Below are positions 46,303 to 62,990 of a stretch of 64,000 nt of DNA, piece by piece. Source of the DNA: Rhodanobacter thiooxydans (GTDB lineage: Bacteria; Pseudomonadota; Gammaproteobacteria; Xanthomonadales; Rhodanobacteraceae); the NCBI RefSeq assembly GCF_021545845.1, contig NZ_CP088923.1, forward strand, positions 124,001-188,000. Direction: 5' to 3'. Below the pieces are notes generated by a model. The model saw only the letters and a list, made by a program, of their open reading frames with translations. It searched no databases and was not told the origin of the DNA. Both the position numbers and the translations under genes were made by a program. Within the stretch, counting starts at the first letter, position 1. Every line of letters starts with the position of its first letter.

Positions 46303-47829
46303 TCAGTGGCCGCCGGCGACCGGTCTGGCCTTCGGCGTGAACGGCGGCCTGGCCAGCCAGATCACCAGCACCAGCGCCAGGAAGATCCAGCCCAGCGCGT
46401 GGAACACCTCGTTGAACGAGATCTGGTAGGCCTGCTGGGTGATGATGTCGTTGAGCACACCGGCAGCGGCCTGCTGGTCGCCCTGGCCGAGCTGGTGCAG
46501 CGCGGCCTGCGTGGTCGGGCTGTAAGCGGTGATGTGTTCGGTCAACCGCTCGTGGTGGGTCACCGCACGGCGCTCCCACAGCAGTGTGGTGAGCGACGCC
46601 GAGAAGCTGCCGCCCAGCGTGCGCAGGAAGGTGGCCAGGCCGGAGCCGGACGCGATCTCGTTCTGCTGCAGGTCCGACAGCAGGATGGTCAGCACCGGCA
46701 TGAAGAACAACGCCACGCCCAGACCCTGCCACAGCTGCACCATCGCCACGTGGTAGAAGTCGATGCCGATGAAGAAGTCCGAGCGCATGAAGCAGGTGCC
46801 GGCCATCACCACGAACGCGACCGAGGCCAGCATGCGCAGGTCGAAGCGGGTGGCGTACTTGCCCACGAAGAAGGTCAGCAGCACCGGCAGCACGCCGATC
46901 GGCGCGGTGGCGAAGCCGGCCCAGGTCGAGGTGTAGCCGAGGTTGCGCTGCAGCCACAGCGGCACCAGCAGGCCGATCGCGAAGAACGCGGCGTAGGCCA
47001 GGGTCAGCGCGATGGTGCCGGCGGTGAAGTTGCGGTGGCGGAACAGGCGCAGGTCGACGATCGGGTCCTTGTCGGTCAGTTCCCAGATCAGGAACACCGC
47101 GATGCCGATCGCCGAGACGATGCTGGTGACGATGATGAAGCTGGAGTTGAACCAGTCCTCGTCGTTGCCCTTGTCCAGCACGATCTGCAGCGCGCCCACG
47201 CCGATGATCAGGCTGACCAGGCCGACGTAGTCGACCTTCGGCCGCTCGGTCTTCTCCACTTTTGCGCGCAGCTGGTTCGCCACCACCATGCTGGCGAAGA
47301 TGCCGATCGGTACGTTGATGAAGAAGATCCACGGCCACGAATAGTTGTCGGTGATCCAGCCGCCGAGGATCGGCCCGGCGATCGGCGCCACCACCGTCAC
47401 CATCGCCAGCAGCGCCAGCGCCATGCCGCGCTTGGCCGGCGGGTAGATGCCGATCAGCAGGCTCTGCGTGATCGGGTACATCGGCCCGGCCACCGCGCCC
47501 TGCAGCGCACGGAACAGGATCAGCATGCCCATGCTCTGCGACACCCCGCACAGGAACGAGGTCAGCGCAAACAGCAGCGTGCAGGCGGTGAACAGCCGCA
47601 CCTCGCCGAAGCGGCGGCTGAGAAAGCCGGTCAGTGGCAGCGCGATCGCCATGCTCACCGCGAACGAGGTGATCACCCAGGTGCTCTGGTTGTTGCTAAC
47701 GCCGAGGTTGCCGGCGATGGTCGGCAGCGACACGTTCGCGATGGTGGTGTCCAGCACCTGCATGAACGTGGCCAGCGACAGGCCGACCGTGCTCAGGGCC
47801 AGGTGGGGCGGGCGGAATTCGGTGGTCAT
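46303..47829 (-). CDS. emrB: DHA2-family MFS efflux permease, EmrB-type
   Basis: 508 residues, about 14 membrane helices. DHA2 markers: LATFMQVLDTTIANVSLPTI at the first helix, NNQSTWVITSFAVSMAIALP, GWITDNYSWPWIFFINVPIG (motif C region). It pumps hydrophobic drugs with EmrA and an outer-membrane channel. Last gene of marR-nodT-emrA-emrB, with a GTAG repeat in the emrA-emrB spacer. Confidence 0.93.
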   Translation of the reverse strand: MTTEFRPPHLALSTVGLSLATFMQVLDTTIANVSLPTIAGNLGVSNNQSTWVITSFAVSMAIALPLTGFLSRRFGEVRLFTACTLLFALTSFLCGVSQSMGMLILFRALQGAVAGPMYPITQSLLIGIYPPAKRGMALALLAMVTVVAPIAGPILGGWITDNYSWPWIFFINVPIGIFASMVVANQLRAKVEKTERPKVDYVGLVSLIIGVGALQIVLDKGNDEDWFNSSFIIVTSIVSAIGIAVFLIWELTDKDPIVDLRLFRHRNFTAGTIALTLAYAAFFAIGLLVPLWLQRNLGYTSTWAGFATAPIGVLPVLLTFFVGKYATRFDLRMLASVAFVVMAGTCFMRSDFFIGIDFYHVAMVQLWQGLGVALFFMPVLTILLSDLQQNEIASGSGLATFLRTLGGSFSASLTTLLWERRAVTHHERLTEHITAYSPTTQAALHQLGQGDQQAAAGVLNDIITQQAYQISFNEVFHALGWIFLALVLVIWLARPPFTPKARPVAGGH

Positions 47830-47847
47830 CGGAACCAGTCGGTCGTT

Positions 47848-47923
47848 GTAGGAGCCCGCTTGCGGGCGATGCTCTGGCTCTGAATTTCCAGACCAGAAGC
47901 ATCGCCCGCAAGCGGGCTCCTAC
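47848..47923. repeat. GTAG-headed palindromic repeat pair (emrA-emrB)
   Basis: GTAGGAGCCCGCTTGCGGGC faces GCCCGCAAGCGGGCTCCTAC. It fills the 106-bp spacer between emrA and emrB and may alter their expression ratio. Confidence 0.85.
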
Positions 47924-47935
47924 GGGGGTTTGGAG

Positions 47936-49144
47936 TTACTTGCCGCCGGCCATGTTGGCGTGGACGATCTGCGTGATCGTCGCGTCGGCGCTGGCCAGTT
48001 GCTGCCGGTAGACGTCGGTGCTGAAGGCGGGCTTGCTCGGCGAGCGCTGCGAAAGCATCGGGCCGCTGCGGTCGTGCAGGCCCACATCTACGTTCAGCGA
48101 CATGCCGATGCGCAGCGGGTGCCGGTCCAGCTGGGCCGGGTCGTCGAACACGATGCGCACCGGGATGCGCTGCACGATCTTGATCCAGTTGCCGGTGGCG
48201 TTCTGCGCCGGCAGCAGCGAGAACGCGCTGCCGGTGCCCACGCCCAGGCTCTGCACCTTGCCCTTGTAGGCCACCTTGCCGCCGTAGACGTCGGACTCGA
48301 TCGTCACCGGCTGACCGATGCGCATGTCGGTGAGCTGGGTTTCCTTGAAGTTCGCGTCCACCCACACCTGGTGCAGCGGCACCACCGCCATCAGCGCGGC
48401 GCCCGGCTGCACGCGCTGGCCGACCTGCACCGAGCGTTTGGCCACATAGCCGTCCACCGGCGCGACCAGGGTGGCGCGCTCGTCGTCGAGGAAGGCGGCG
48501 CGCAGGCGTGCCGCGGCGGCCTGCACGTCCGGGTGCGAGGCGACCACGGTGTCGTCGACCAGCACCTTGCTGGTCTGGTACTGCTGCTGGGCGGTGACCA
48601 GGTTGCTCTCGGCGCTGGTCAGCGCGTCGCTGGCGTGCGCCAGTTCCTCGGCCGAGATCGCGCCGGACTTGGCCAGCGCCACGCGCCGCTGGTAGTCGGC
48701 GCGCGCCTTGTCCACCGCGGTCTTGCGCGCGGCTACGTCGGCCTGCGCGCCGTTCATGCTGGAGTACAGGCCGCGCACCTTGCGCACGGTGGCGGCGAGG
48801 TTGGCCTTCGCCCCGGCCAGCGCCACGTCGGCGTCGCTGGGGTCGAGCCGCACCAGCACGTCGCCGGCATGCACCAGGTCGCCGTCGTCGGCGCCGATGC
48901 TGACCACGGTGCCGGGCACCTGCGGGGTGATCTGCACCACGTTGCCGTTGACGTAGGCGTCGTCGGTGCCCTCGTACCAGCGGCCGTCGAGGAAGTACCA
49001 CAGAGACCAGCCGACGGCGGCGAGCAGCATCACGCCGCCGAGCAGGCGCAACAGCAGGCCGCGCGGGTTGTTCCTCGCCGGCGGGCTGACCGGGATGCTG
49101 GCAGCCGCGGCGCCGCTCGAATCAGGGATGGTCTGGCTGGACAT
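47936..49144 (-). CDS. emrA: EmrA-type membrane fusion protein
   Basis: 402 residues. A single N-terminal membrane helix (LLLRLLGGVMLLAAVGWSLW) precedes a biotinyl-lipoyl half (GNVVQITPQVPGTVVSIGAD), an alpha-hairpin and a second lipoyl half (ATLVAPVDGYVAKRSVQVGQ). It bridges EmrB to the outer-membrane channel. Nine bases after the nodT-type gene's stop. Confidence 0.93.
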   Translation of the reverse strand: MSSQTIPDSSGAAAASIPVSPPARNNPRGLLLRLLGGVMLLAAVGWSLWYFLDGRWYEGTDDAYVNGNVVQITPQVPGTVVSIGADDGDLVHAGDVLVRLDPSDADVALAGAKANLAATVRKVRGLYSSMNGAQADVAARKTAVDKARADYQRRVALAKSGAISAEELAHASDALTSAESNLVTAQQQYQTSKVLVDDTVVASHPDVQAAAARLRAAFLDDERATLVAPVDGYVAKRSVQVGQRVQPGAALMAVVPLHQVWVDANFKETQLTDMRIGQPVTIESDVYGGKVAYKGKVQSLGVGTGSAFSLLPAQNATGNWIKIVQRIPVRIVFDDPAQLDRHPLRIGMSLNVDVGLHDRSGPMLSQRSPSKPAFSTDVYRQQLASADATITQIVHANMAGGK

Positions 49145-49153
49145 GGGGCTGCC

Positions 49154-50605
49154 TCAGGAACGTGACGGGGTGGGGGACGGGATGGCGACGGCCGCATCGG
49201 TGCGCGGCTGGTAGCCGCCGCCGAGGGCCTGGATCAGCTGTACCGAAAGATCGGCCTGCTGCGCTTCAAGCGCGGCGCTGCCGCGCTCGACGGCGAGCAA
49301 CTGCTGGCGCACGCTGAGCGCTTCCAGGTAGCTGCCGACGCCGGCCTGGTAGCGCTGCTCGGCCAGATCCCAGGCTTGTTGCGCGGCATCCTGCGCGCGT
49401 TGCTGCGCGGCGATCTGCGTCTGCAGCGACTTGAGCGCGGAGAGTTCGTCGGCAACCTGGTTGAGCGCGCCGACCAGGGTCTGGTTGTACTGCGCCACGG
49501 CGAGGTCGTACTGCGCGTCCTTGGCCGAAAGGTTCGCGCGCAGGCGGCCGCCGTCGAAGATCGGCAGGCTGAGCGACGGCCCGACCTGGTAGAACCGTCC
49601 GGCCAGGCTGAGCGGATTGGCGCCGCCCAAGCTGACCAGGCCGGCCATCGCGCCGATGCTGATGTCCGGCAGGAACTCGGTCTTCGCCGCCCTGATGTCC
49701 TTGCCCGCGGCCTCGACGCGCCAGCGCGCCGCGACCAGGTCGGCGCGATGGCCGACGAGCTCCAGCGGCAGCTTCGCCGGCACCGCCAGCGCGGCCGGCG
49801 CCAGCTGCCGCGGCCGTTCGAGCTGCAGGCCGCGGTCCGGGCCCTTGCCCAGCAGCACCGCCAGCGACGAGCGCGCCGCATCGACCGCGCGACGGGCCAG
49901 TGCCGCCTGCTGCTCGGCGCTGGCCACTTCGGCGTCGCCCTGCTTCAGCGCGACCTGGTTGTCGATGCCGGCGGCCACGCGCTGGCGGGTCAGTTCGCGC
50001 GCGGAACCGGCGCGTTGCAGCTCGGCGTCGGCCAGGTCCTGCTGGGTGAAGGCATAGCCGAGCTGGACATAGGCGCGGGCCACGTTGCCGGACAGCTCGA
50101 TGCGCGCGGCACGGGCGTCCACCTCGGCTGCGCGCGCCTGGCCCAGCGCCGCTTCCCACGCGGCGCGCTTGCCGCCCCATGGGTCCAGATCCCACTTGAA
50201 GCTGGTGTAGCCGTACTTGGCGATGGCGAAATGCGCCTTGTCGCCGAGCAGTGCGGGCGGCGGCCGGGCACCGGCGACCGCGGCGCCGCCGTTCACGCTG
50301 GGCCCGCGTGCGGCGTCGGCGAAGCCCGCCGCGGCCTGCGCGGCGCGGGCGCGCGCATCGGCCACACCCAGGCCAGGGTTGTCCTGCAGCGCCTCGGCGA
50401 TCAACGCGTCCAATTGCCGGTCGCCCAGCCCGGTCCACCAGTCGGTGGTTGGCCACGCGGCCGCGGACAGCTGGGCCAGGCTGCGCCCGGCCTTCAGGGT
50501 GGACGGGTCGGTCGGCGTGCCTTCCGGGTGCAAGCCGCCGCTGCTGGCACAAGCGGCCAGCGCAAGGGTCAGGGCAGCCGCAGCCGCCAGTTGATGCAGA
50601 TGCAT
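49154..50605 (-). CDS. NodT-family outer-membrane efflux lipoprotein
   Basis: 483 residues. Lipoprotein signal with lipobox LALAACAS. Two outer-membrane efflux repeats follow (WWTGLGDRQLDALIAEALQD; ARAYVQLGYAFTQQDLADAE; PDISIGAMAGLVSLGG; VADELSALKSLQTQ). It is the TolC-like exit duct for EmrAB. 22 bases after marR. Confidence 0.92.
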   Translation of the reverse strand: MHLHQLAAAAALTLALAACASSGGLHPEGTPTDPSTLKAGRSLAQLSAAAWPTTDWWTGLGDRQLDALIAEALQDNPGLGVADARARAAQAAAGFADAARGPSVNGGAAVAGARPPPALLGDKAHFAIAKYGYTSFKWDLDPWGGKRAAWEAALGQARAAEVDARAARIELSGNVARAYVQLGYAFTQQDLADAELQRAGSARELTRQRVAAGIDNQVALKQGDAEVASAEQQAALARRAVDAARSSLAVLLGKGPDRGLQLERPRQLAPAALAVPAKLPLELVGHRADLVAARWRVEAAGKDIRAAKTEFLPDISIGAMAGLVSLGGANPLSLAGRFYQVGPSLSLPIFDGGRLRANLSAKDAQYDLAVAQYNQTLVGALNQVADELSALKSLQTQIAAQQRAQDAAQQAWDLAEQRYQAGVGSYLEALSVRQQLLAVERGSAALEAQQADLSVQLIQALGGGYQPRTDAAVAIPSPTPSRS

Positions 50606-50627
50606 GGAGGGAGTCCAGGAGGGGAGG

Positions 50628-51086
50628 TCAGCTCTTGTCGCGCAGCGCGTGCAGCACGCGCTCCAGGTAGTCCTGCAGTTGCGCCTGTTCGGCCTCGCTC
50701 AGCGAACGCTGCGCGGCGGTCAGCACGTGCTCGTTGCAGTCGACCAGCTGCGTCCACAGCGCGTTGCCGGCGTCGGTCAGCTCGATGCGCAGGGCGCGCC
50801 GATCCTGCTCATGCGGGCAGCGGCGCAGGTAGCCCTTGCCCTCGAGGTGGTCGAGCTGGCGGGTCATCGCGCCGCCGTCCAGTTCCACCGAGCGGGCCAG
50901 CTCGCTGGCCGACATCGGCCCGAGCCGGGCCAGCCGTTTGAGGATCAGGAACTGGGTGAAGCTCAGGTTCAGGCCCTTGGCCGCCAGCTCGGTTTCCATC
51001 GCCCGCACGATCTCCGTGCGGACCAGGCCGAGCAGGATGCCCAGGCTTTCCTTGGGCGTGGAGAAGGCAAGCGATTCGCTATTCAT
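50628..51086 (-). CDS. MarR-family regulator of the emr operon
   Basis: 152 residues with the MarR winged helix (FTQFLILKRLARLGPMSASELARSV, GAMTRQLDHLEGKGYLRRC, DRRALRIELTDAG). First gene of the efflux operon, so it likely represses it and is released by a pump substrate. Its start follows the promoter -10 by only eight bases with no Shine-Dalgarno, so the mRNA is probably leaderless. Confidence 0.9.
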   Translation of the reverse strand: MNSESLAFSTPKESLGILLGLVRTEIVRAMETELAAKGLNLSFTQFLILKRLARLGPMSASELARSVELDGGAMTRQLDHLEGKGYLRRCPHEQDRRALRIELTDAGNALWTQLVDCNEHVLTAAQRSLSEAEQAQLQDYLERVLHALRDKS

Positions 51087-51094
51087 GGCCGCGC

Positions 51095-51132
51095 ATTCTA
51101 TTGCCAAAATTATATTTGTCAATGCAAATATA
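51095..51132 (-). promoter_or_regulatory. marR-emr promoter with palindromic operator
   Basis: On the minus strand, -35 TTGACA (51122-51117), 16-bp spacer, -10 TAGAAT (51100-51095). An 8-bp inverted repeat, TATATTTG and CAAATATA (51111-51118, 51125-51132) with a six-base centre, covers the -35. This is the form of MarR-type operators. The AT-rich patch stands out from the surrounding GC-rich DNA. Confidence 0.78.
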
Positions 51133-51138
51133 TTCGAG

Positions 51139-51435
51139 TCAAGTTTTGCTCAGGCAAGTGTTCAGGGCGGCGCGGGTCCGCTGGGACCGAAAGTCGTCGT
51201 GCACCAGCGCGTGCAACGCGGGAGCGCGGAAGATGAACAGCTCGAACACGCCCAGCGCCAGCAGGGTCGGCAGTTGCGCCAGCAGGCGGGGTTCGGTCTC
51301 GCGACGCACCGATCCCGGGGCGCCGGATCGAGCATCAGCTGGGTATGCACCACGGATTCGGTGAGTGCGTCGGCGTACGTGGCGGGGCGTCCCCGCTGCG
51401 GGTACTTCCACTACCGCCCAGGCTTGCCCATGCAC
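51139..51435 (-). pseudogene. Possible degraded coding remnant
   Basis: A 98-codon frame whose second half reads like protein (LPTLLALGVFELFIFRAPAL then HALVHDDFRSQRTRAALNTC). In its first half a neighbouring frame looks more protein-like (RGRPATYADALTESVVHTQL), so a frameshift may separate two parts of one decayed gene. No family recognised. It occupies the gap between the marR promoter and the RND pump stop (51473). Confidence 0.25.
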
Positions 51436-51472
51436 ACCTCCATGCAGCGCAGCGGGCTGAAGGCCTTCCCGC

Positions 51473-54400
51473 TCAGGCCGCGTCGCGGCCAGGCAGGTGG
51501 CGGCCGCCGTCGCGCGCCAGCCACCCGTAATACAGCAGCGGAATCACCAGCAGGGTCAGCACGGTCGATACCAGCACGCCAAATACCAGCGACACCGCCA
51601 GGCCCTGGAAGATCGGGTCGCCGAGGATGAAGAACGCGCCGAGCATCGCCGCCAGCGCGGTGAGGATGATCGGCTTGGCGCGCACCGCGCCGGCCTCGAC
51701 CACCGCATTCTCCAGGCTCAGCCCCGCCGCCAGCGAATGGTTGATGAAGTCCACCAGCAGGATCGAGTTGCGCACGATGATGCCGGCCAGCGCGATCATG
51801 CCGATCATCGAGGTGGCGGTGAACTGCGCGCCGAACAGCCAGTGCCCCGGCATCACGCCGATCACGGTCAGCGGGATCGGCGCCATGATGATCAGCGGCA
51901 CCAGGTAGCTGCGGAACTGCCCGACCACCAGCAGGTAGATCAGCAGCAGGCCCATCGAGTAGGCGATGCCCATGTCGCGGAACGTCTCCAGGGTGATTTC
52001 CCACTCGCCGCTCCAGCGCACCGAGAAGCCGCTGTCGCTGGCTGGCGGCGCGGTGAACTTCTGCGCCAGCTGCTGCCTGTCCAGGCGCGTCTGGCCGATT
52101 TTGCCGACCAGCCGGAACATGCCGTAGACCGGGCTGTCCTCGCTGCCGGCGTCGTCGCCGGTGACGAAGGCATAGGGCAGCAGGTCCTTGTGGTAGACCG
52201 CGTCGGCCCACGGCCGGGTGACCACCTTCACCACCTCGGAGATCGGCACCAGCTGTCCCGCGGCGGAGCGCACGCGCAGCTTGAGCACATTGTCCATCGA
52301 GCCCAGCGCGGCCGGCGGCAGCCGCAGCACGATCGGCACCGCGTACTTGGCGTTCTCGTCCGCCATGTAGCTGGCCGGCGTGCCGCCCATGCCGGTGCGC
52401 AGGGCGTCGACGATGTCGGCCTGGCTGATGCCCAGCGCGGCCGCGCGCGCACGGTCGATCTCCACCAGCTGGCGCGTCGCCTGCGGGTTCTCCGTGCTCA
52501 GGTTGACGTCGACGATACCCGGCGTACGCTCGAACAGCTGCGCCAGCGCCAGCACGACCCCGCGCTGGTCGCGGTAGTCCGGCCCGTAGATCTCGGCCAC
52601 GATCGGCGCTATCACCGGCGGCCCGGGCGGCACCTCGGCCACCACCAGGTGGGCGTGGAAGCGCTGCGCCACCGCCGCCAGCGCCGGGCGCACCGCCAGC
52701 GCAACCTGGTGGCTTTGCCGCTGGCGCTCGCCCTTGTCGACCAGGTTGACCTGGATGTCGCCCTGGTACGGCTGGTTGCGCAGGTAGTACTGGCGCACCA
52801 GGCCGTTGAAGTTCATCGGCGCCGAGGTGCCGGCGTAGAGCTGGTAGTCCTTCACCTCCGGCACACCGTCCAGCACGCGGCCGAGCTCGACCAGCACGCG
52901 CTGGGTCTGCTCCAGGGTCGAACCCTCGGGCATGTTCAGCACCACCTGGAACTCGGACTTGTTGTCGAACGGCAGCATCTTCAGCACCACCAGCTTGACC
53001 CCGGCCAGGCCGGCGGCCAGCAGCACCAGCAGGCTCATGCCGAGGAACAGCCGGCGCCGGTTGCGCGCCGCCTTCGGGTGGCCGAGGAACGGGCGCATCA
53101 CGCGGGTGAACAGGTTCTGCAGGAAGTCGTCGATGCGCGAGTGCTGCGCCGCGCCGGCCGCCGGCGCATGGCGGCGCAGCAGCTGGTAGGCCAGCCACGG
53201 CGTGACCACGAAGGCCACCGCCAGCGAGATCAGCATGCCGACCGAGGCGTTGATCGGGATCGGCCGCATGTACGGCCCCATCAGCCCGCCAACGAAGGCC
53301 ATCGGCAGCAGCGCGGCGATCACCGTGAAGGTGGCCAGAATGGTCGGCCCGCCCACTTCGTCCACCGCGGCGGGAATCGCCTGCAGCAGGCTCTTGTCGC
53401 CGCGCGCCATGTGCCGGTGGATGTTCTCCACCACCACGATCGCGTCGTCGACCAGGATGCCGATCGAGAAGATCAGCGCGAACAGCGACACCCGGTTGAT
53501 GGTGAAGCCGATCGCCCACGAGGCGAACAGGGTCACCGCCAGCGTCACCACCACGGCGGTGCCGACCACCACCGCCTCGCGCCAGCCCAGCGCCAGCAGC
53601 ACCAGCAGCACCACCGCCAGCGCGGCCAGGCCCAGGTGCAGCAGCAGCTCGTCGGCCTTATCGTTGGCGGTCTGCCCGTAGTCGCGGGTCACCGTGGCGT
53701 GCACGCCCGCGGGAATGTCGACCCCGCGCAAGGCGTCCAGCCGCTCGCGGATGGTGCCGGCGATGGTGTGGGCATTGCTGCCGGCCTTCTTGGCGATCGC
53801 CAGGGTCACCGCGGGGGCCAGCCCGGCGAGCGGCCCGGCCCGGCCCGGCGGCGTGCCGAACGAGGCCAGCCGCGTCACATGGTTGCTGCCCGCCTCCACG
53901 CGGGCCACGTCCGACAGATACAGCGGGCGGCCGTCGGCCAGGCCGATCACCAGCTGCGCCACCTCGTCCGCGTTCATCAGCAGGGTGCCGGCCTTGACCG
54001 GCAGGTCGCGGTTGCCGCCGATCTCGCTGCCGGCGTCGACCGCCACGTTGGCCGCCTTCAGCGTGCGCACCAGGTCGGCGACGGCGAGCTGGTGGGTGGC
54101 CAGTTTGGCCGGATCCAGCTCGACCATCACCGCGCGCTCCGGCGCGCCGATGGTGTAGACGTCGCGCGTGCCGGGCACCCGCTTGAGCTCGGTCTCCAGC
54201 GTGTGCGCCACCTTGGCCAGCTGCTCGGGCGTGGTTTCCGGGCGGTCGGACCACAGGGTCACCGCCATCATCGGCACGTCGTCGATCCCGTACGGCTTCA
54301 CCAGCGGCTGGCCGACGCCAAGCCCGGCCGGCACCCAGTCGGCGTTGGAGTACAGCTTGTTGTACAGGTCGACCAGCGCCTGCTGGCGCGGCACGCCGAC

Positions 54401-54715
54401 GTCGAACTCCACCGTCACCACTGCCATGCCGGCGCGGCTCATCGAGTAGACGTGCTTGACGCCCTTGATCTCGGCGACCTTCTGCTCCAGCGGAAAGCTC
54501 ACCAGGTTCTCGACGCTCTGCACGCTGGCGCCCGGGTACGGCACCAGCACGTTGGCCATGGTCACTTCGATCTGCGGGTCTTCCTCCTTGGGCGTGATGA
54601 TCGCCGCGGCGATGCCCAGCAGCAGTCCGGCCAGCGCCAGCAAGGGCGTGATCTGCGAGGCCTGGAACGCCCGCGCGATACGCCCGGAGATACCCAGCCG
54701 GGTAGGCTCATTCAT
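51473..54715 (-). CDS. RND efflux permease of the sulfide operon
   Basis: 1080 residues, AcrB/HAE1-like with 12 membrane helices. The Asp pair is in IGILVDDAIVVVENIHRHMARG; ATSMIGMIALAGIIVRNSIL marks the second half. Its start overlaps the adaptor stop by eight bases (ATGAATGA). Last gene of sqr-DUF2892-DUF302-adaptor-RND. It is distant from the paralogous pumps at 36-42.6 kb. The substrate is unknown; context points to a sulfur compound or a toxic product of sulfide stress (inference). Confidence 0.9.
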   Translation of the reverse strand: MNEPTRLGISGRIARAFQASQITPLLALAGLLLGIAAAIITPKEEDPQIEVTMANVLVPYPGASVQSVENLVSFPLEQKVAEIKGVKHVYSMSRAGMAVVTVEFDVGVPRQQALVDLYNKLYSNADWVPAGLGVGQPLVKPYGIDDVPMMAVTLWSDRPETTPEQLAKVAHTLETELKRVPGTRDVYTIGAPERAVMVELDPAKLATHQLAVADLVRTLKAANVAVDAGSEIGGNRDLPVKAGTLLMNADEVAQLVIGLADGRPLYLSDVARVEAGSNHVTRLASFGTPPGRAGPLAGLAPAVTLAIAKKAGSNAHTIAGTIRERLDALRGVDIPAGVHATVTRDYGQTANDKADELLLHLGLAALAVVLLVLLALGWREAVVVGTAVVVTLAVTLFASWAIGFTINRVSLFALIFSIGILVDDAIVVVENIHRHMARGDKSLLQAIPAAVDEVGGPTILATFTVIAALLPMAFVGGLMGPYMRPIPINASVGMLISLAVAFVVTPWLAYQLLRRHAPAAGAAQHSRIDDFLQNLFTRVMRPFLGHPKAARNRRRLFLGMSLLVLLAAGLAGVKLVVLKMLPFDNKSEFQVVLNMPEGSTLEQTQRVLVELGRVLDGVPEVKDYQLYAGTSAPMNFNGLVRQYYLRNQPYQGDIQVNLVDKGERQRQSHQVALAVRPALAAVAQRFHAHLVVAEVPPGPPVIAPIVAEIYGPDYRDQRGVVLALAQLFERTPGIVDVNLSTENPQATRQLVEIDRARAAALGISQADIVDALRTGMGGTPASYMADENAKYAVPIVLRLPPAALGSMDNVLKLRVRSAAGQLVPISEVVKVVTRPWADAVYHKDLLPYAFVTGDDAGSEDSPVYGMFRLVGKIGQTRLDRQQLAQKFTAPPASDSGFSVRWSGEWEITLETFRDMGIAYSMGLLLIYLLVVGQFRSYLVPLIIMAPIPLTVIGVMPGHWLFGAQFTATSMIGMIALAGIIVRNSILLVDFINHSLAAGLSLENAVVEAGAVRAKPIILTALAAMLGAFFILGDPIFQGLAVSLVFGVLVSTVLTLLVIPLLYYGWLARDGGRHLPGRDAA

Positions 54716-55817
54716 GGGTGGACGCACCGCTGGAGGGCCGGCCGGCGGCGTGCCGCGCGACCAGCCAGGCACGGGCCGCCTGCGGGTCGCGGGCCACGCG
54801 TTCGCCGTCGTCGAGCCCGGCCAGGATCTCGACGTGGTCGCCGTCCTGCGGGCCGATGCGCAGCTGGCGCAGGCTCACCCCGTACGCGTCGAGCGCGTAG
54901 ACGCCGACCAGCTCGCCGCGCCGCACCAGCGTCGAGGCGGGCAGCAGCAGGCGCTTCGCCGCGCCGGTGGCGAACGCCACCTTCACCGTCATGCCCGGAT
55001 ACAGGCCACCGTTGTCTGCCGGCAACGGCAGCCGCACGTTGAACGTGTGGGTCTGCGGGTCGGCGTAGGGAAACACCTCGACCGCGCCGGCCGCGATGCG
55101 CCGCTCGCCGCGCAGCACCTGCGCCGAGTGGAACTGGCGGATCGCCTCGACCGCGCTCTGCGGCACCTGCACGTTGACCCGCAACTGGTCCAGCGCCTGC
55201 AGCTGGATCAGCGGCTGCGGCGACGGCGGCCCGGCCTGCACCGCCTCACCCACGTGCACGAAACGACGCGTGATGATGCCGGCGAACGGCGCGCGCAGCA
55301 CGGTGTAGTCCAGCTGCTGGCCGACGTTCGCCAGCTGGGCGCGCGCGGCATCCAGCGCCGCGCGCGCCGCATCGCGCGCCGCGCGCTGCTGGTCCATCTG
55401 CGCGGCGGACACGTAGCCTTTCGCATAGACCGCCTCGATGCGCCCGAACGACGCCTGCGCCTCCTTGTAGCTCGCCTCGGCCGAGGCGAGCTGTGCCCGG
55501 GCGGCCTGGCGCGCGGACTGCTGCTCCACGTCGCTGAAGCGCACCAGCACGTCGCCCTTGGCCACCACGTCGTTGACGTCGTACGGCAGTTCGCGCACGC
55601 GCGCATTGGTCTGCGCGGTGATCGTCACCTGCTGCACGGCCTCGACCACGCCGTCCCAGAGCTGCTGCCGCGGCGCGTCCTCCGCGCGCACGACGATCGC
55701 CGCCAGCGCCGGCGGTTTCGCCGCGGCGTCGCCGGCGTTCGGCTTGCCGCCGCAGCCGGCGAGCAGGCCCAGCGCGAGCAGCGCGGCGGGCAGCGAGCGG
55801 AGGTGGCGCATGCTCAT
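54708..55817 (-). CDS. RND adaptor (membrane fusion) lipoprotein
   Basis: 369 residues. Lipobox LLAGCGG with lipid Cys22. Lipoyl half ITAQTNARVRELPYDVNDVV, an alpha-hairpin (ARAQLASAEASYKEAQASF), then VLRAPFAGIITRRFVHVGE and a beta-barrel. Its start ATG overlaps the DUF302 stop by four bases. No outer-membrane channel gene is in this operon. Confidence 0.92.
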   Translation of the reverse strand: MSMRHLRSLPAALLALGLLAGCGGKPNAGDAAAKPPALAAIVVRAEDAPRQQLWDGVVEAVQQVTITAQTNARVRELPYDVNDVVAKGDVLVRFSDVEQQSARQAARAQLASAEASYKEAQASFGRIEAVYAKGYVSAAQMDQQRAARDAARAALDAARAQLANVGQQLDYTVLRAPFAGIITRRFVHVGEAVQAGPPSPQPLIQLQALDQLRVNVQVPQSAVEAIRQFHSAQVLRGERRIAAGAVEVFPYADPQTHTFNVRLPLPADNGGLYPGMTVKVAFATGAAKRLLLPASTLVRRGELVGVYALDAYGVSLRQLRIGPQDGDHVEILAGLDDGERVARDPQAARAWLVARHAAGRPSSGASTHE

Positions 55818-56197
55818 GCGGCCTCGTCGATCATCCGCATGGTCGCGCTTTCGACCTCCTGCGCGATCGCGGCCAGCTGCGCGTCGGACGAGAGCATGCC
55901 GAGCATCGGCACCGGCTTGATCATGCCGATGCGCGTGTCGCCGTTCTCGGTGTACACCGAGATGCGGCAGGGCAGCGCCATGTTGAGACGCAGGTCGGTG
56001 GCCAGCACGCTGGCGGCGTGGCGCGGGCTGCACACCTCGAACACCTTGCATTGCCCGGCGAACGCGAAGCCCTTGCTGCGCAAGGTGGCGCCCAGGTCGT
56101 GCACGTGCAGCACGCCGAACTGGTGGCGACTGACGGCGGCGTCGAGATCGCTGACCGCGTCCTCGAAGGATTTTGTCGATTCCACGATGTAGTACAT
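55814..56197 (-). CDS. DUF302 family protein
   Basis: 127 residues, starting MYYIVESTKSFEDAVSDLDA and carrying FGVLHVHDLGATLRSKG, CKVFEVCSPRHAASVL, ALPCRISVYTENGDTRIGM and the C-terminal EVESATMRMIDEAA, the DUF302 pattern. Function unknown; DUF302 proteins recur beside sulfur-oxidation and heavy-metal genes. Three cysteines (CKVFEVC, LPC) could bind sulfur or metal (inference). Overlaps the adaptor gene by four bases. Confidence 0.85.
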   Translation of the reverse strand: MYYIVESTKSFEDAVSDLDAAVSRHQFGVLHVHDLGATLRSKGFAFAGQCKVFEVCSPRHAASVLATDLRLNMALPCRISVYTENGDTRIGMIKPVPMLGMLSSDAQLAAIAQEVESATMRMIDEAA

Positions 56198-56226
56198 GTT
56201 GGTTGCCTCTCTCGCGCGCGGCGCGG

Positions 56227-56433
56227 TTATGACTTGATCGCGCAGGCCGGCTTCAGGCCGAGCTTGCGCAGGATGATGGCCAGCGGGCAGAGGCCGCTGA
56301 AGGCGGACTGGAACAGGTTGAACCCGACGAAGGCGGTCAGCCACAACCAGCCGGGCGACACGAAGTGGGCGAGGCCCAGGCTGATCAGGATCACCGCGCC
56401 GGCAAAGGCTCGTACCGCGTTTTCGATAGTCAT
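56227..56433 (-). CDS. DUF2892 small membrane protein (YgaP-like)
   Basis: 68 residues, two membrane helices (AFAGAVILISLGLAHFV and WLWLTAFVGFNLFQSAF) followed by the family motif GLCPLAIILRKLGL. Related to the membrane tail of the rhodanese YgaP, but without the rhodanese domain. The conserved Cys suggests a link to sulfur transfer. 72 bases after sqr and 29 before the DUF302 gene. Confidence 0.87.
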   Translation of the reverse strand: MTIENAVRAFAGAVILISLGLAHFVSPGWLWLTAFVGFNLFQSAFSGLCPLAIILRKLGLKPACAIKS

Positions 56434-56505
56434 GTTGTTCTCCTGCAGTGGATGGAGGGTGGCGCGGCGCGTTGGCCCCTCATGGGGCAGTCTCGCCGCG
56501 GGCGG

Positions 56506-57807
56506 TCATGGGGCCGGCGTCTCGTCGGCCTTGACGTCCGGCTTCAGGCGCTCGATGCCGAACGCCTCCATGATGGTTTTCTCGTAGATCGGGTCGGCCT
56601 GGCCCTTGCGCATCTTGCGCAGGAAGTACTTCTCGTAGGCAACCTTGGCCAGGTGCACCCACTTGCCGGTCATCGCCTTGGTCACGTTGCGCGGCGGAAT
56701 CTGCGGCAACGCGATGAAGGCGAAGCCGCGGTCGCCCATGTCGGCCAGGCACATCGCGTTCCAGGTAGCGCGCGCATGCGGCGGCTTGCCGGCGATGGCG
56801 TCGCGCAGGTTGTGCGCGATGGCGGTGACCATCGACTCGATCATCAGCCCGGTCTTGGGCGCGCCGGTGGGTACCGGGGTGACCTCGACCGGCGGAATGG
56901 CCACGCACACGCCGGCGGCGTAGACGTTGGGGTAGGCGGGGTTGCGCTGAAACTCGTCGATCAGCACGAAGCCGCCTGGATTGACCAGGCCCTCGACCTC
57001 CTTCACCGCGTCGACGCCGGCGAACGAGGGCAGCAGCATCGAGAAGGCAAACGGCAGGTTGTGTTCCTGCTGCAGCTGGCCGCGTTCATCCAGTTGCTCG
57101 ACATGCATCGCACCGGATTCGACCGAGCGCACCCGCGCGTTGGTGATCCACTTGATGTGGCGCTGGCGCAGTTCCGATTCGAGCAGTCCCTTGGAGTCGC
57201 CGATGCCGCCCAGGCCCATGTGGCCGATGTACGGTTCGGCGGTGACATAGGTCATCGGCACCCGGTCGCGCAGCTTGCGCCGGCGCAGGTCGGTGTCCAC
57301 GATCATCGCAAACTCGTAGGCGGGGCCGAAGCAGCTGGCGCCCTGCGCCGCGCTGATCACGATCGGCCCCGGGTGCTTGAGGAACTCCTGATAGGCCAGC
57401 CAGGCCCGGTGCGCGTGCGGGCCGGTGCAGATCGACTGCGTGTAGCCTTCCGGCCCGCTGCCCGGTACCCGCTCGAACGCCAGGCGCGGCCCGGTGGTGA
57501 TCACCAGGTAGTCGTAATCCAGCTTGCGCCCGTCGCCCAGTTCGATCTGGTGGTCGGCCGGGTGCACCTTGCTGGCACCGGCGTCGATAAAACGGATGTC
57601 GCGCCGGGCCAGCGGCTGGGCGACGTCCACCCGGATCTCGTCCTGCCCGCGCCAGCCCACCGCCACCCAGGGGTTGGAAGGCGTGAAGTTGAACTGCGGC
57701 CCTTCGCCGATCACGGTGATCGCGTGCCCACTGCCCACGGTGTCGCGGATCTCGTAGGCCGCCGACATGCCGCCCAGGCCTGCTCCAAGGATGACGATGT
57801 TTGCCAT
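56506..57807 (-). CDS. sqr: Sulfide:quinone oxidoreductase
   Basis: 433 residues. FAD-binding ILGAGLGGMSAAYE at the N terminus. The three catalytic cysteines are present: Cys127 (SICTGPHAH), Cys159 (GASCFGPAYEF) and Cys353 (AMCLADMGDRG), with spacing close to the Cys128/160/356 set of Acidithiobacillus ferrooxidans SQR. PVPTGAPKTGLMIESM also matches. It oxidises sulfide to polysulfide at the membrane and reduces quinone. First gene of a five-gene operon, divergent from the ArsR-type sensor with a 207-bp control region. Confidence 0.93.
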   Translation of the reverse strand: MANIVILGAGLGGMSAAYEIRDTVGSGHAITVIGEGPQFNFTPSNPWVAVGWRGQDEIRVDVAQPLARRDIRFIDAGASKVHPADHQIELGDGRKLDYDYLVITTGPRLAFERVPGSGPEGYTQSICTGPHAHRAWLAYQEFLKHPGPIVISAAQGASCFGPAYEFAMIVDTDLRRRKLRDRVPMTYVTAEPYIGHMGLGGIGDSKGLLESELRQRHIKWITNARVRSVESGAMHVEQLDERGQLQQEHNLPFAFSMLLPSFAGVDAVKEVEGLVNPGGFVLIDEFQRNPAYPNVYAAGVCVAIPPVEVTPVPTGAPKTGLMIESMVTAIAHNLRDAIAGKPPHARATWNAMCLADMGDRGFAFIALPQIPPRNVTKAMTGKWVHLAKVAYEKYFLRKMRKGQADPIYEKTIMEAFGIERLKPDVKADETPAP

Positions 57808-57898
57808 GGCTCGACACTCCTCTGGGGTGTGTGGAAACGGGACTGCTCATCTCGGCTGGAGCCGACTGCCACGGTAGGCGCCTATGCGTTGCGACAGC

Positions 57899-57968
57899 TT
57901 GACCAGGGTCAATATTTCTAATAGAAGAATCTACATTAGGCATAGCTTATTTAGATAGCTGTGCTAAA
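57899..57968. promoter_or_regulatory. Divergent control region of the sulfide genes
   Basis: An AT-rich island in GC-rich DNA. It holds a perfect TTGAC-CAGG-GTCAA palindrome (57899-57912) of FNR/Anr/Dnr type, a TTCTA-A-TAGAA dyad (57916-57926), and TTTAG/CTAAA arms nine bases apart (57950-57954, 57964-57968). TTGACC with N17 and TAGAAG could be a promoter toward the sensor gene. ArsR-type BigR proteins bind AT-rich imperfect palindromes, so the latter dyads are candidate operators. Confidence 0.5.
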
Positions 57969-58014
57969 GTCAAGCCCTACACCCAGCAGACAGCACCGAC
58001 CCGGAGGCGCAGCC

Positions 58015-58365
58015 ATGCCGTTACCGAACCATGCGGATCTGGGCGCCATGCGCGCCTGCGCCGATGATGCGTCGCGCCTGCTCAAGGCGCTCGGCAACGC
58101 CCAGCGCCTGCGCGTGCTGTGCCTGCTGGTCGACCGCGAGATGTCGGTGGGGCAGATCAACGAGCAGTTGCCCGACCTGGCCCAGTCCGCGCTCTCGCAG
58201 CACCTGGCCAGGTTGCGCGAGGAAGGCCTGGTAAACACGCGGCGCGAGTCGCAGACCATCTGGTACGCGCTCGCGCCCGGGCCGGCCGAACGGATCATCG
58301 ACGCGCTGTATGGCATCTATTGCGCGCCTGCGGAAAAATCGCGCTCGCGGAAGTCGCGGGCCTGA
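58015..58365 (+). CDS. bigR: ArsR-family persulfide sensor, BigR/SqrR-type
   Basis: 116 residues with the ArsR winged helix (LLKALGNAQRLRVLCLLVD; SALSQHLARLREEGLVNTRR). Cys36 in the second helix and Cys103 in the last helix match the cysteine pair that BigR, SqrR and YgaV use to sense persulfides by forming a sulfur bridge; no arsenic-type Cys cluster is present. GGAGG lies nine bases before the ATG. It should repress both itself with the downstream MBL gene and the divergent sqr operon. Confidence 0.88.
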   Translation: MPLPNHADLGAMRACADDASRLLKALGNAQRLRVLCLLVDREMSVGQINEQLPDLAQSALSQHLARLREEGLVNTRRESQTIWYALAPGPAERIIDALYGIYCAPAEKSRSRKSRA

Positions 58366-58408
58366 GCCGCGGGCGGCCGCGCTTCGATCATCCAGCGGGG
58401 GAGCTTCC

Positions 58409-59275
58409 ATGCCACAGCCTGACGTGACGGCGTTCTTCCACGCCGCCAGCCACACCTTCAGCTACGTGGTGGCGGACCCGGCGACGCGCCGCGCCGCGGT
58501 GATCGACGCGGTGCTCGACTACGACGCGGCGTCCGGGCGCAGCGGCCACCAGTCGGCCGACGCGCTGGTGGCGTTCGTGCAGGCGCAGGGTCTGGCGGTC
58601 GACTGGATCATCGAAACGCACGTGCACGCCGACCACCTGTCGGCGGCGGCGTACATGCAGGCGCAGCTGGGCGGCCGGCTCGGCATCGGCGAGCACGTGC
58701 GCGCCGTGCAGGCGACCTTCGGTGAACTGTTCAACGCCGGCGCCGGCTTCGCCCGCGACGGCAGCCAGTTCGACCACCTGTTCGCCGACGGCGAGCGCTA
58801 CCGCGTGGGCAGCATCGAGGCCAGCGCGATTCACACGCCGGGCCATACACCAGCCTGCATGACGCACGTGATCGGTGATGCGGCGTTCGTCGGCGACACC
58901 CTGTTCATGCCCGACTACGGCACTGCCCGTTGCGATTTCCCCGGCGGCGACGCGGCGACGCTGTACCGCTCGATCCGGCGCATTTTCGAGCTGCCGGGCA
59001 GCACGCGGATCTTCCTCTGCCACGACTACAAGGCGCCCGGCCGTGAGACGTTTTCGCACCAGACCACGGTGGCCGCCGAGCGCACCGGCAACGTCCACGT
59101 GCGCGACGGCATCGGCGAGGCCGAGTTCGTCGCCCTGCGCCGCGAGCGCGACGCCACGCTGGCCGTGCCGCCGCTGCTGCTGCCCGCGGTGCAGGTGAAC
59201 ATGCGCGCAGGCCGGCTGCCGCCGGCCGAGGACAACGGCGTGCAGTACCTGAAAATCCCGCTGGATGCGTTCTGA
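58409..59275 (+). CDS. MBL-fold hydrolase, persulfide dioxygenase/Blh-like
   Basis: 288 residues. The metal motif THVHADHLSAA has HVHADH at 71-76; HTPGHTPACMTHVIGD, FVGDTLFMPDYGTARCDFPGG and FLCHDYKAPGRE complete the ETHE1/Blh pattern. These proteins oxidise glutathione persulfide to sulfite, downstream of SQR. It follows bigR by 43 bases, GGGGAG upstream of the ATG, and forms its operon. No fused rhodanese domain. Confidence 0.88.
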   Translation: MPQPDVTAFFHAASHTFSYVVADPATRRAAVIDAVLDYDAASGRSGHQSADALVAFVQAQGLAVDWIIETHVHADHLSAAAYMQAQLGGRLGIGEHVRAVQATFGELFNAGAGFARDGSQFDHLFADGERYRVGSIEASAIHTPGHTPACMTHVIGDAAFVGDTLFMPDYGTARCDFPGGDAATLYRSIRRIFELPGSTRIFLCHDYKAPGRETFSHQTTVAAERTGNVHVRDGIGEAEFVALRRERDATLAVPPLLLPAVQVNMRAGRLPPAEDNGVQYLKIPLDAF

Positions 59276-61947: not shown

Positions 61948-62970
61948 TTATGCAAGCGAGCATCCAGGTGATGCGTGCGCAGAGGCAACGAGGCGGTGTC
62001 TGGGGTAGTCAGGATCAAACAGCGAGTTGGTATGGATGACGCCCCAGACTAGGTGCAGGAGCTTCCGCATGGCGGCACACACGGTCACGATGGGGAGCTT
62101 CCCGCGTGCGAGCAACCGTTCGCAGAAGGCACGAACCACGGGGTTGTGGTTCTTGGCGCAGATGGCGGGAAAGTAGAGTTTGGCGCGCAAGCCGGGGGCA
62201 CCGGTTTTGGAGATCCGGACCTGTCCCTTGAGCGTGCCCGACTCGCGCCGTGCCGGGTTGAGGCCGGCGAAGGCGACCAGCTTGCCCGGCGCGTCGAAGC
62301 GTCGCAGGTCGCCCAGTGCGGCGAGCAGGGAGGCCGACGTGGTCTTGGCGATGCCGGGGATGGACGTCATCAACGCCGCGTCGTAGCGCAGCTGGGGATC
62401 CTTGTCGATGTGATTGTTGATGCGCTGCTCCAGCGCCTTGATCTGCTTGCGCAGTTCCTTGAGCGACGCTTCCACCGAGTCGCGTACGGCGTCATTGGCG
62501 ACGTCGAGTCGGTTCGCTTCCATCCGCTCCATGCCCTTGAGATCGTCCAGCCGTTCGACCAGCGCGCGCAAGGTGCGCTGGGCCGCTGTCGGCGGCATCC
62601 ACGGCGCCATCGGATGGGTGCCGGCCTGCTGACTGGTGGCGAACTGCGCAATGAGCTTGGCGTCTGTGCGGTCGGTCTTGGTTCGCGTCAGCTGGCTCTT
62701 GCCGAAGTACTTTACTTGCGCCGGATTGGCCACGTAGACCGTCTTGCCTTGCTGTACCAGGAAGATGGCCAGTGCCTCGTGATAGATCCCCGTCGCTTCC
62801 ATGCACACCGCCGCTTCCGGCGCGTGCTTGTCCAACCAGGTCATCAACTCCTGGAAGCCTTCTTCACGATTGGCCACCTTGGCGCGTGTCTGGAATTTGC
62901 CCGGCTTGGCCAGACCAACGGCCACATCAAACGTGGCCTTGGCCACATCCACTCCCACAACGTTTGTCAT
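61948..62970 (-). mobile_element. IS110-family transposase gene (element 1)
   Basis: 340 residues. N-terminal RuvC-like DEDD domain: GVDVAKATFDVAVG, AAVCMEATGIYHEALA and RTKTDRTDAKLIAQFA. A coiled-coil segment follows (SLKELRKQIKALEQRINNHI), then the C-terminal transposase domain (SIPGIAKTTSASLLAALGDL; FAGLNPARRESGTLKG; ISKTGAPGLRAKLYFPA). The start was set at 62970, seven bases after GAGG. Element ends are not defined; IS110 elements lack long terminal repeats. The gene is intact. Upstream non-coding sequence contains a long-range stem (62991-63093). Confidence 0.92.
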
Positions 62971-62990
62971 CGCCTTACCTCGCATGGTTT

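Follow-up and report, generated by a model that had tools for sequence, protein, structure and literature searches.

A resistance-nodulation-division (RND) efflux pump lies within a sulfide-oxidation gene cluster in a 64-kb stretch of a Rhodanobacter-like genome (hereafter the window). Five genes on the minus strand encode, in order, a sulfide:quinone oxidoreductase (SQR), a DUF2892 protein, a DUF302 protein, a periplasmic adaptor (membrane fusion protein, MFP) and an RND permease, while a bigR-like ArsR gene and a gene for a persulfide dioxygenase-like protein of the metallo-β-lactamase (MBL) fold lie divergently on the plus strand. We consider it fairly probable that these genes form a detoxification operon that responds to sulfane sulfur and includes its own export arm, combining a BigR switch, SQR, the dioxygenase and the pump. 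The gene content of the module, its conservation in relatives, the clades formed by its pumps and a palindrome common to its regulatory regions were observed directly, and the conserved partnership of sqr and pump suggests that a harmful sulfur product is exported as well as oxidized.

The layout agreed in every respect (order, strands, spacers and overlaps) with an earlier description made from the letters alone, the sequence-only reading. The sqr gene (57807-56506) is followed after 72 bp by the gene for a DUF2892, or YgaP-like_TM, transmembrane protein (56433-56227; PF11127) and after another 29 bp by the DUF302 gene (56197-55814; PF03625, with a match to 1q9u). The latter overlaps by 4 bp the adaptor gene (55817-54708; TIGR01730), whose product has a lipobox-like LLAGC near its N terminus, and an overlap of 8 bp leads into the permease gene (54715-51473), which encodes 1080 aa scoring 548 bits to Pfam ACR_tran. 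The host genome measures 4.2 Mb and is close to Rhodanobacter thiooxydans LCS2, with SQR 95% and pump 97% identical; the LCS2 locus (L063) shows the gene order of the window.

Linkage of the pump to sulfide genes

The same 117 genomes of the host's family were searched with the SQR (E<=1e-60) and with the pump (E<=1e-200). SQR was found in 39 genomes, the pump in 45 and both in 37 (Fisher's p = 3e-20, a statistic that ignores shared ancestry). In 36 of these 37 genomes, sqr and the pump gene shared a contig, the pump lying directly downstream and always on the same strand, at a distance of 1,148-3,404 bp (36/36). The sequence-only reading had taken the pump to belong with the sulfide genes and had named conservation of the order in relatives as the check; run here, that check bears it out, and the arrangement is more than chance because it is conserved in relatives. 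For this family, the same counts do not support its remark that such a pump is not a standard member of these operons. In the split case (G358), a pump gene begins after sqr at a contig end (L230), and the same holds for one SQR-only genome (G348, L227); the second of the two SQR-only genomes (G356, L228) has SQR alone. In G380 the pump reaches only 42-44% identity.

Eight family genomes carry a pump and no SQR match, of which two are uninformative on short contigs (L225 and L226). In all six informative ones (L219-L224), bigR stands divergent from DUF2892-adaptor-pump; because these four genes stay together there, they look like the family core, and SQR like a frequent member that can be replaced. 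In L220, the place of sqr between bigR and DUF2892 is occupied by two SQR-like fragments (39-42% identity), which suggests that SQR was lost and the pump kept. Furthermore, a rhodanese gene stands beside the SQR-less module in L219 and L222, and a gene for an SQR-like flavoprotein follows the pump in L221 (3746-4924); no sulfur enzyme was noticed among the gene calls of L223 and L224, which were not searched against families. Several Lysobacterales loci also have a distant second SQR-like flavoprotein gene that follows the pump or lies close to it (L221:3746-4924, L261:2732-3877 and L085:17724-18854).

DUF2892 is a frequent companion of the pump and adjoins it also where SQR was not found, while DUF302 is an optional member, present in some relatives only. 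Three genomes of the window's genus have the order bigR< DUF2892-DUF302-sqr-MFP-RND. A second DUF302 gene, elsewhere in the host genome at G000:C1:3132583 (L002, L218), gave no tblastn match to the operon proteins in its surroundings. In Rhodanobacter spathiphylli (L066:16435-18757), the pump is followed by a dioxygenase-like gene, a gene with a BLH-phosphatase domain and a TauE sulfite exporter gene, so that the locus is a nearly complete sulfide-to-sulfite-to-export cluster.

Beyond the family, named genomes were scanned from SQR, and the best 80 of 118 loci were compared, ranked by likeness to the window SQR and hence biased to its kin. A pump at least 50% identical was present in 52 of these 80 loci, and 13 have a short flank. 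Among the 52, the order bigR< sqr-DUF2892-MFP-RND occurred 24 times, with DUF302 added in four more loci; eight read bigR< DUF2892-MFP-RND-sqr, five had bigR-DUF2892-MFP-RND directed away from sqr (RND<MFP<D2892<bigR< sqr>), and 11 were cut or different, including two with MFP-RND-sqr-DUF2892. Carriers with a named order belong to the Lysobacterales, Steroidobacterales, Nevskiales, Salinisphaerales, Moraxellales and Burkholderiales.

The family of a Rhodocyclaceae metagenome-assembled genome (MAG) gave a pump match in 111 of 150 genomes. Of 32 loci inspected there (the 30 best matches, including L269, plus L268 and L270), 29 had DUF2892 directly after the pump and three (L278, L284 and L289) had SQR directly before it. 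In wider stretches taken from 20 of these relatives, the same three loci read MFP-sqr-RND-DUF2892; the other 17 had no SQR, with a BigR-profile match in two, and weak dioxygenase-profile matches (E 9e-4 to 2e-8) occurred in 10 of the 20. The two orders that begin with MFP, MFP-RND-sqr-D2892 and MFP-sqr-RND-D2892, showed no bigR. Separately, three loci from Novosphingobium and a Pseudomonadota MAG (L124, L139 and L140) have a BigR-like gene beside a remoter RND pump (44-45%) and an sqr-DUF2892 pair within a few kb of both, and the link between pump and sulfide may thus reach the Alphaproteobacteria.

Chance adjacency, or plain vertical inheritance with no functional link, could draw on the shared ancestry of the family, since its 36 sqr-pump cases are not independent. 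Against this, the core genes are found together in at least six gene orders across several orders of Gamma- and Betaproteobacteria, and the core is kept where SQR was not found. We rejected a chance neighborhood on the strength of these rearranged yet still linked loci, and the explanation retains next to no probability.

A FastTree phylogeny was built from 115 rows, namely, the 125 fetched pumps minus 11 shorter than 1000 residues, plus the window pump. Sulfur-linked pumps fall mainly into two clades: one of 43 rows (support 95), of which 42 are sulfur-linked and the remaining one has bigR alone adjoining, and one of eight rows (support 99), all sulfur-linked. Three more sulfur-linked rows are scattered among the others. 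On this tree the sulfur label required five changes, against a mean of 38 when shuffled. Because the tree is midpoint-rooted, one long-branch join drew a warning and some of the rows had been collected by way of SQR, it does not separate gain from loss of the sulfur link.

Enzymes, regulator and putative operator palindrome

The window SQR aligned over nearly its full length with that of Acidithiobacillus ferrooxidans (3sz0, 536 bits), and three cysteines aligned, which we take to be the redox and catalytic residues Cys128, Cys160 and Cys356 of that enzyme. All three were kept in 117/117 loci compared (preselected at >=50% identity, with some genomes present twice), and by its cysteines the protein is predicted to be an SQR of the A. 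ferrooxidans type.

A BigR/SqrR-type sensor and a persulfide dioxygenase-like gene, described in the sequence-only reading as facing the cluster, were both found, each below its NCBIfam cut-off. The regulator gene (57961-58365, plus strand) starts with GTG at 57961 and has an alternative ATG at 58015. Counted from the GTG, Cys54 and Cys121 of its product align with the HlyU/BigR pair, and the protein matches the solved chains 4k2e (HlyU) and 3pqj (BigR). This pair was kept in 86/86 loci compared, preselected at >=45% identity. Its best NCBIfam score was to the BigR model, at 87 bits against a cut-off of 155, and we therefore name it BigR-like and not BigR proper. The MBL-fold gene (58409-59275, plus strand) has a presumptive start at 58409 within a longest open reading frame beginning at 58310. 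Its product reached 376 bits to the Blh model NF040641 (cut-off 625) over model positions 138-423 only, and since the first part of that model is absent, it is not a bifunctional Blh. It matched 9g8t (428 bits), 4ysk (374 bits) and 4efz and, more weakly, the ETHE1 persulfide dioxygenase 4chl (82 bits); 4ysk is presumably a persulfide dioxygenase as well. The sequence HVHADH fits the metal-binding HxHxDH pattern, and by this motif and its likeness to solved enzymes the protein is a predicted persulfide dioxygenase.

A palindrome, CTANATNAG-N6-CTNATNTAG, recurs upstream of bigR. Of 121 regions taken, 86 were distinct, the window included, and 20 dinucleotide shuffles of each served as control. 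The palindrome was present at <=2 mismatches in 54/86 regions, against 0 in shuffles, and at <=3 mismatches in 71/86, against 0.55; it was derived from the same regions, so that these counts describe the motif and are no blind test. Five of the six informative SQR-less loci also have it at <=3 mismatches, L222 being the exception. In the window, the site CTAAATAAG-N6-CTAATGTAG (57931-57954), between the divergent bigR and sqr, is the sole exact copy in the 4.2-Mb genome, and we regard it as a putative BigR operator. One further genomic site has two mismatches and is probably due to chance, because there are fewer sites in all than the three given by the backwards control. Sites with three mismatches were also noted, without a chance control, near the start of the adaptor match in six relatives of the Rhodocyclaceae MAG that have MFP-RND-DUF2892 and no nearby bigR (L305, L307, L308, L309, L311 and L315).

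Reading toward sqr, a TTGACT box noted by eye precedes the putative operator by 12 bp; if it is used, bound repressor would cover the -10 region. The promoter and terminator scan of 50900-58450 did not report this box. It returned one promoter-like site (51122-51095, 11 of 12), before a MarR gene, against an average of 0.6 in shuffles, and, within the sqr coding sequence, a single terminator-like site, against 2.8. No promoter was called inside the operon and none between bigR and sqr; since that gap is also without a call, silence within the operon is weak evidence.

Cargo of the pump and competing explanations

RND pumps take their cargo from the periplasm or from the outer leaflet of the inner membrane. 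Relatives of BigR are repressors that answer to sulfane sulfur (PMC12423496, section 2.1), and SQR releases polysulfide or elemental sulfur (S8) (PMC5358917). Taken together, these properties make it most likely that the pump exports a sulfur species produced or encountered during sulfide stress. Export of persulfide or polysulfide, which the sequence-only reading had suggested, belongs with BigR binding, co-transcription and the use of a shared channel to what we infer, and the pump substrate does so above all.

Judging from characterized relatives, rising sulfide or sulfane sulfur would lead to a polysulfide bridge between the two cysteines of the BigR-like repressor, and the bridged repressor would depart from the operator between bigR and sqr. 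Derepression would switch on SQR, converting sulfide to polysulfide or persulfide, as well as the persulfide dioxygenase, DUF2892, the adaptor and the RND permease. Through a shared outer-membrane channel, the pump would then clear a harmful sulfur species from the periplasm or inner membrane; candidate cargoes are polysulfide, a persulfide of low molecular weight and a hydrophobic polysulfane, for example S8. More speculatively, DUF2892 and the adaptor-RND pair could be dedicated to the secretion of zero-valent sulfur, gathering polysulfide or hydrophobic S8 or polysulfane that SQR or a rhodanese has left in or at the inner membrane and expelling it outside; we regard this version as possible, though doubtful. 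If true, it would explain extracellular elemental sulfur and would make sulfur export an active, regulated and proton-driven step in sulfide detoxification.

The permease itself is HAE-1-like. It has an Asp-Asp pair in the fourth transmembrane segment, which we take to be the hallmark of HAE-1 pumps, unlike the metal HME pattern, as well as an arginine at what is presumably the position of AcrB Lys940, and the Asp-Asp and Arg relay residues are invariant across the 115 aligned rows. The protein nevertheless fell below every NCBIfam permease cut-off listed, the best score being 478.8 bits against 1250 for NF033617. For the adaptor, TIGR01730 gave 193 bits against a cut-off of 94.9, with a query that started one codon before the ATG.

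These features bear directly on the idea that the pump exports metal ions, metal-sulfide complexes or arsenite and antimonite, toxic when sulfide is present. A metal role has been proposed for H2S-upregulated RND pumps in Azospira (PMC5358917), and a cyanobacterial ArsR-SQR-DUF302 operon is tied to arsenite (PMC5061849). Besides the Asp-Asp pair of the HAE-1 pattern, the scores speak against it: 261.8 bits to the HME model for CusA/CzcA (TIGR00914), whose cut-off is 701, and 128 bits for the adaptor to the CzcB model, whose cut-off is 319. The regulator, moreover, retains the sulfane-sulfur cysteine pair. A metal-type RND identity was rejected on the NCBIfam scores, and we consider metal or arsenite export improbable.

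Several observations weigh against sulfur export as the function of the module. The pump module also occurs without SQR, so that SQR need not be the source of the substrate, and 15 of the best 80 SQR-anchored loci have no pump even though both flanks reach 5 kb. The palindrome was not found in 15/86 regions even at three mismatches. No substrate signature stands out clearly in the sulfur pump clades, where three positions, none of them informative, differ at >=80%. In a pump-anchored control of 274 genomes of the class, at least 76 matches outside the window genome reached >=51% identity, five being incomplete where a contig ends, and 63 of the 76 loci listed had no profile match to SQR, BigR, DUF2892, DUF302 or the dioxygenase, SQR being matched in three. 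The wider RND family, about 55-60% identical, is as a whole therefore not a sulfur pump family. For Azospira, finally, the authors favor general or metal-sulfide stress as the explanation for the pumps (PMC5358917), and the transposon fitness (Bar-seq) flag on its operon carries no sign of the fitness effect in the parts of the paper used here.

The class-wide loci and the lack of a clade-specific signature, along with the Asp-Asp pair and the fact that multidrug permease models gave the best scores, favor a general multidrug or stress exporter under sulfide control, which would clear drugs, metabolites or damaged lipids during respiratory poisoning and have no sulfur cargo. We think this unlikely: the pump has stayed linked to SQR, rhodanese or SQR-like genes through several rearrangements, and the multidrug cut-offs are widely missed. 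Persistence of the module without SQR in the six informative genomes also fits a cargo of external organic sulfur toxins (for example, plant polysulfanes, thiosulfinates or isothiocyanates), with BigR sensing the sulfane sulfur released and SQR and the dioxygenase cleaning up. Other bacteria have RND pumps that act on plant organosulfur compounds; no sequence feature points specifically to such compounds here, and this explanation is very unlikely.

A cysteine-based pump signature was likewise considered. One cysteine was present in 35 of 52 sulfur-linked fetched pump rows, and none in 53 of 62 other rows. The candidate was dropped, as the cysteine stands at varying positions (17 rows have it at 1009 and 12 at 509) and is absent from the window pump.

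As the sequence-only reading had noted, the operon contains no outer-membrane channel gene. The nearest one (49154-50605) belongs to a second efflux cluster (46303-51122, minus strand) just downstream of the pump, which comprises a MarR regulator, a NodT-type channel and an HlyD-type adaptor, followed by an open reading frame that looks to us like an EmrB-type MFS pump. The NodT-type channel could serve the RND pump. By tblastn it was found only at L063, L064 and L066, loci that share the neighboring MarR/HlyD-type cluster; elsewhere there were weak matches only, at L068 (29%) and L211 (24%), and other channel families were not searched. On the other side, 2.7 kb past the dioxygenase-like gene, an open reading frame (61948-62985, minus strand) looks by eye like an IS110-type transposase.

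Comparison with known systems

Accounts of how the sulfane sulfur made by SQR is disposed of mostly invoke enzymes (dioxygenase and rhodanese) and exporters of small anions. An RND module found widely next to the sulfide switch would add active export to this picture, assign clades of unnamed pumps a function in physiology and tie efflux capacity to sulfide exposure. The sequence-only reading had called the system possibly undescribed, which holds in part. No paper was found in the open-licence literature on the conserved module, the pump clades or the operator, and as far as these searches show, the breadth of the module, its conserved core, the pump clades and the operator motif are new. Already in print are an H2S-induced sqr-RND operon of Azospira from 2017 (PMC5358917) and a single sentence from 2025 that mentions RND pumps in the vicinity of such regulators (PMC12423496).

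The pump shares with the HAE-1 systems AcrAB-TolC, MexJK and OqxAB the permease and adaptor families and the Asp-Asp proton relay; it differs in its scores under the NCBIfam cut-offs, in having arginine where AcrB has Lys940 and in the lack of a channel gene in its operon. The switch resembles BigR/Blh of Xylella and Acinetobacter, SqrR of Rhodobacter and YgaV-YgaP of Escherichia coli, which are dithiol ArsR repressors that sense persulfide and are paired with a dioxygenase or a YgaP-like transmembrane partner. The transporters named for Acinetobacter, in the parts of that source used, are of the TauE and YeeE/YedE types and not RND pumps (PMC7315123). The 2025 paper comes closer, in that sulfane-sulfur ArsR regulators appear to act on RND efflux pump genes among other transporters (PMC12423496); it gives this in one sentence, and its section 2.1 describes no module, operator, pump clade or SQR linkage. 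A plasmid sqr operon of Synechocystis likewise joins ArsR, SQR and DUF302 with a transporter, but the latter is of the chromate family and thought to be an arsenite importer (PMC5061849).

The nearest described counterpart is operon Dsui_3440-3443 of Azospira suillum PS, encoding an MFP, SQR, an efflux pump and a small unknown protein (PMC5358917; the statements here draw on parts of that paper). Its order is unlike that of the window, and no bigR or dioxygenase gene is mentioned with it in those parts. The order of its locus tags equals the MFP-SQR-RND-DUF2892 of the three Rhodocyclaceae-MAG relatives, a match by order only, and from this gene order the operon would be the same module, with DUF2892 as its unknown gene. 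Azospira supplies the only experiment found on such an operon: under H2S it was highly expressed and was flagged by Bar-seq (PMC5358917). In-frame deletions have been made, and loss of the operon left the rate of H2S oxidation unchanged, at 0.49 versus 0.50 mM per h (PMC5358917). Because the rate did not change, the role of the Azospira operon would be tolerance or export, not oxidation, as the export arm proposed for the window module would have it.

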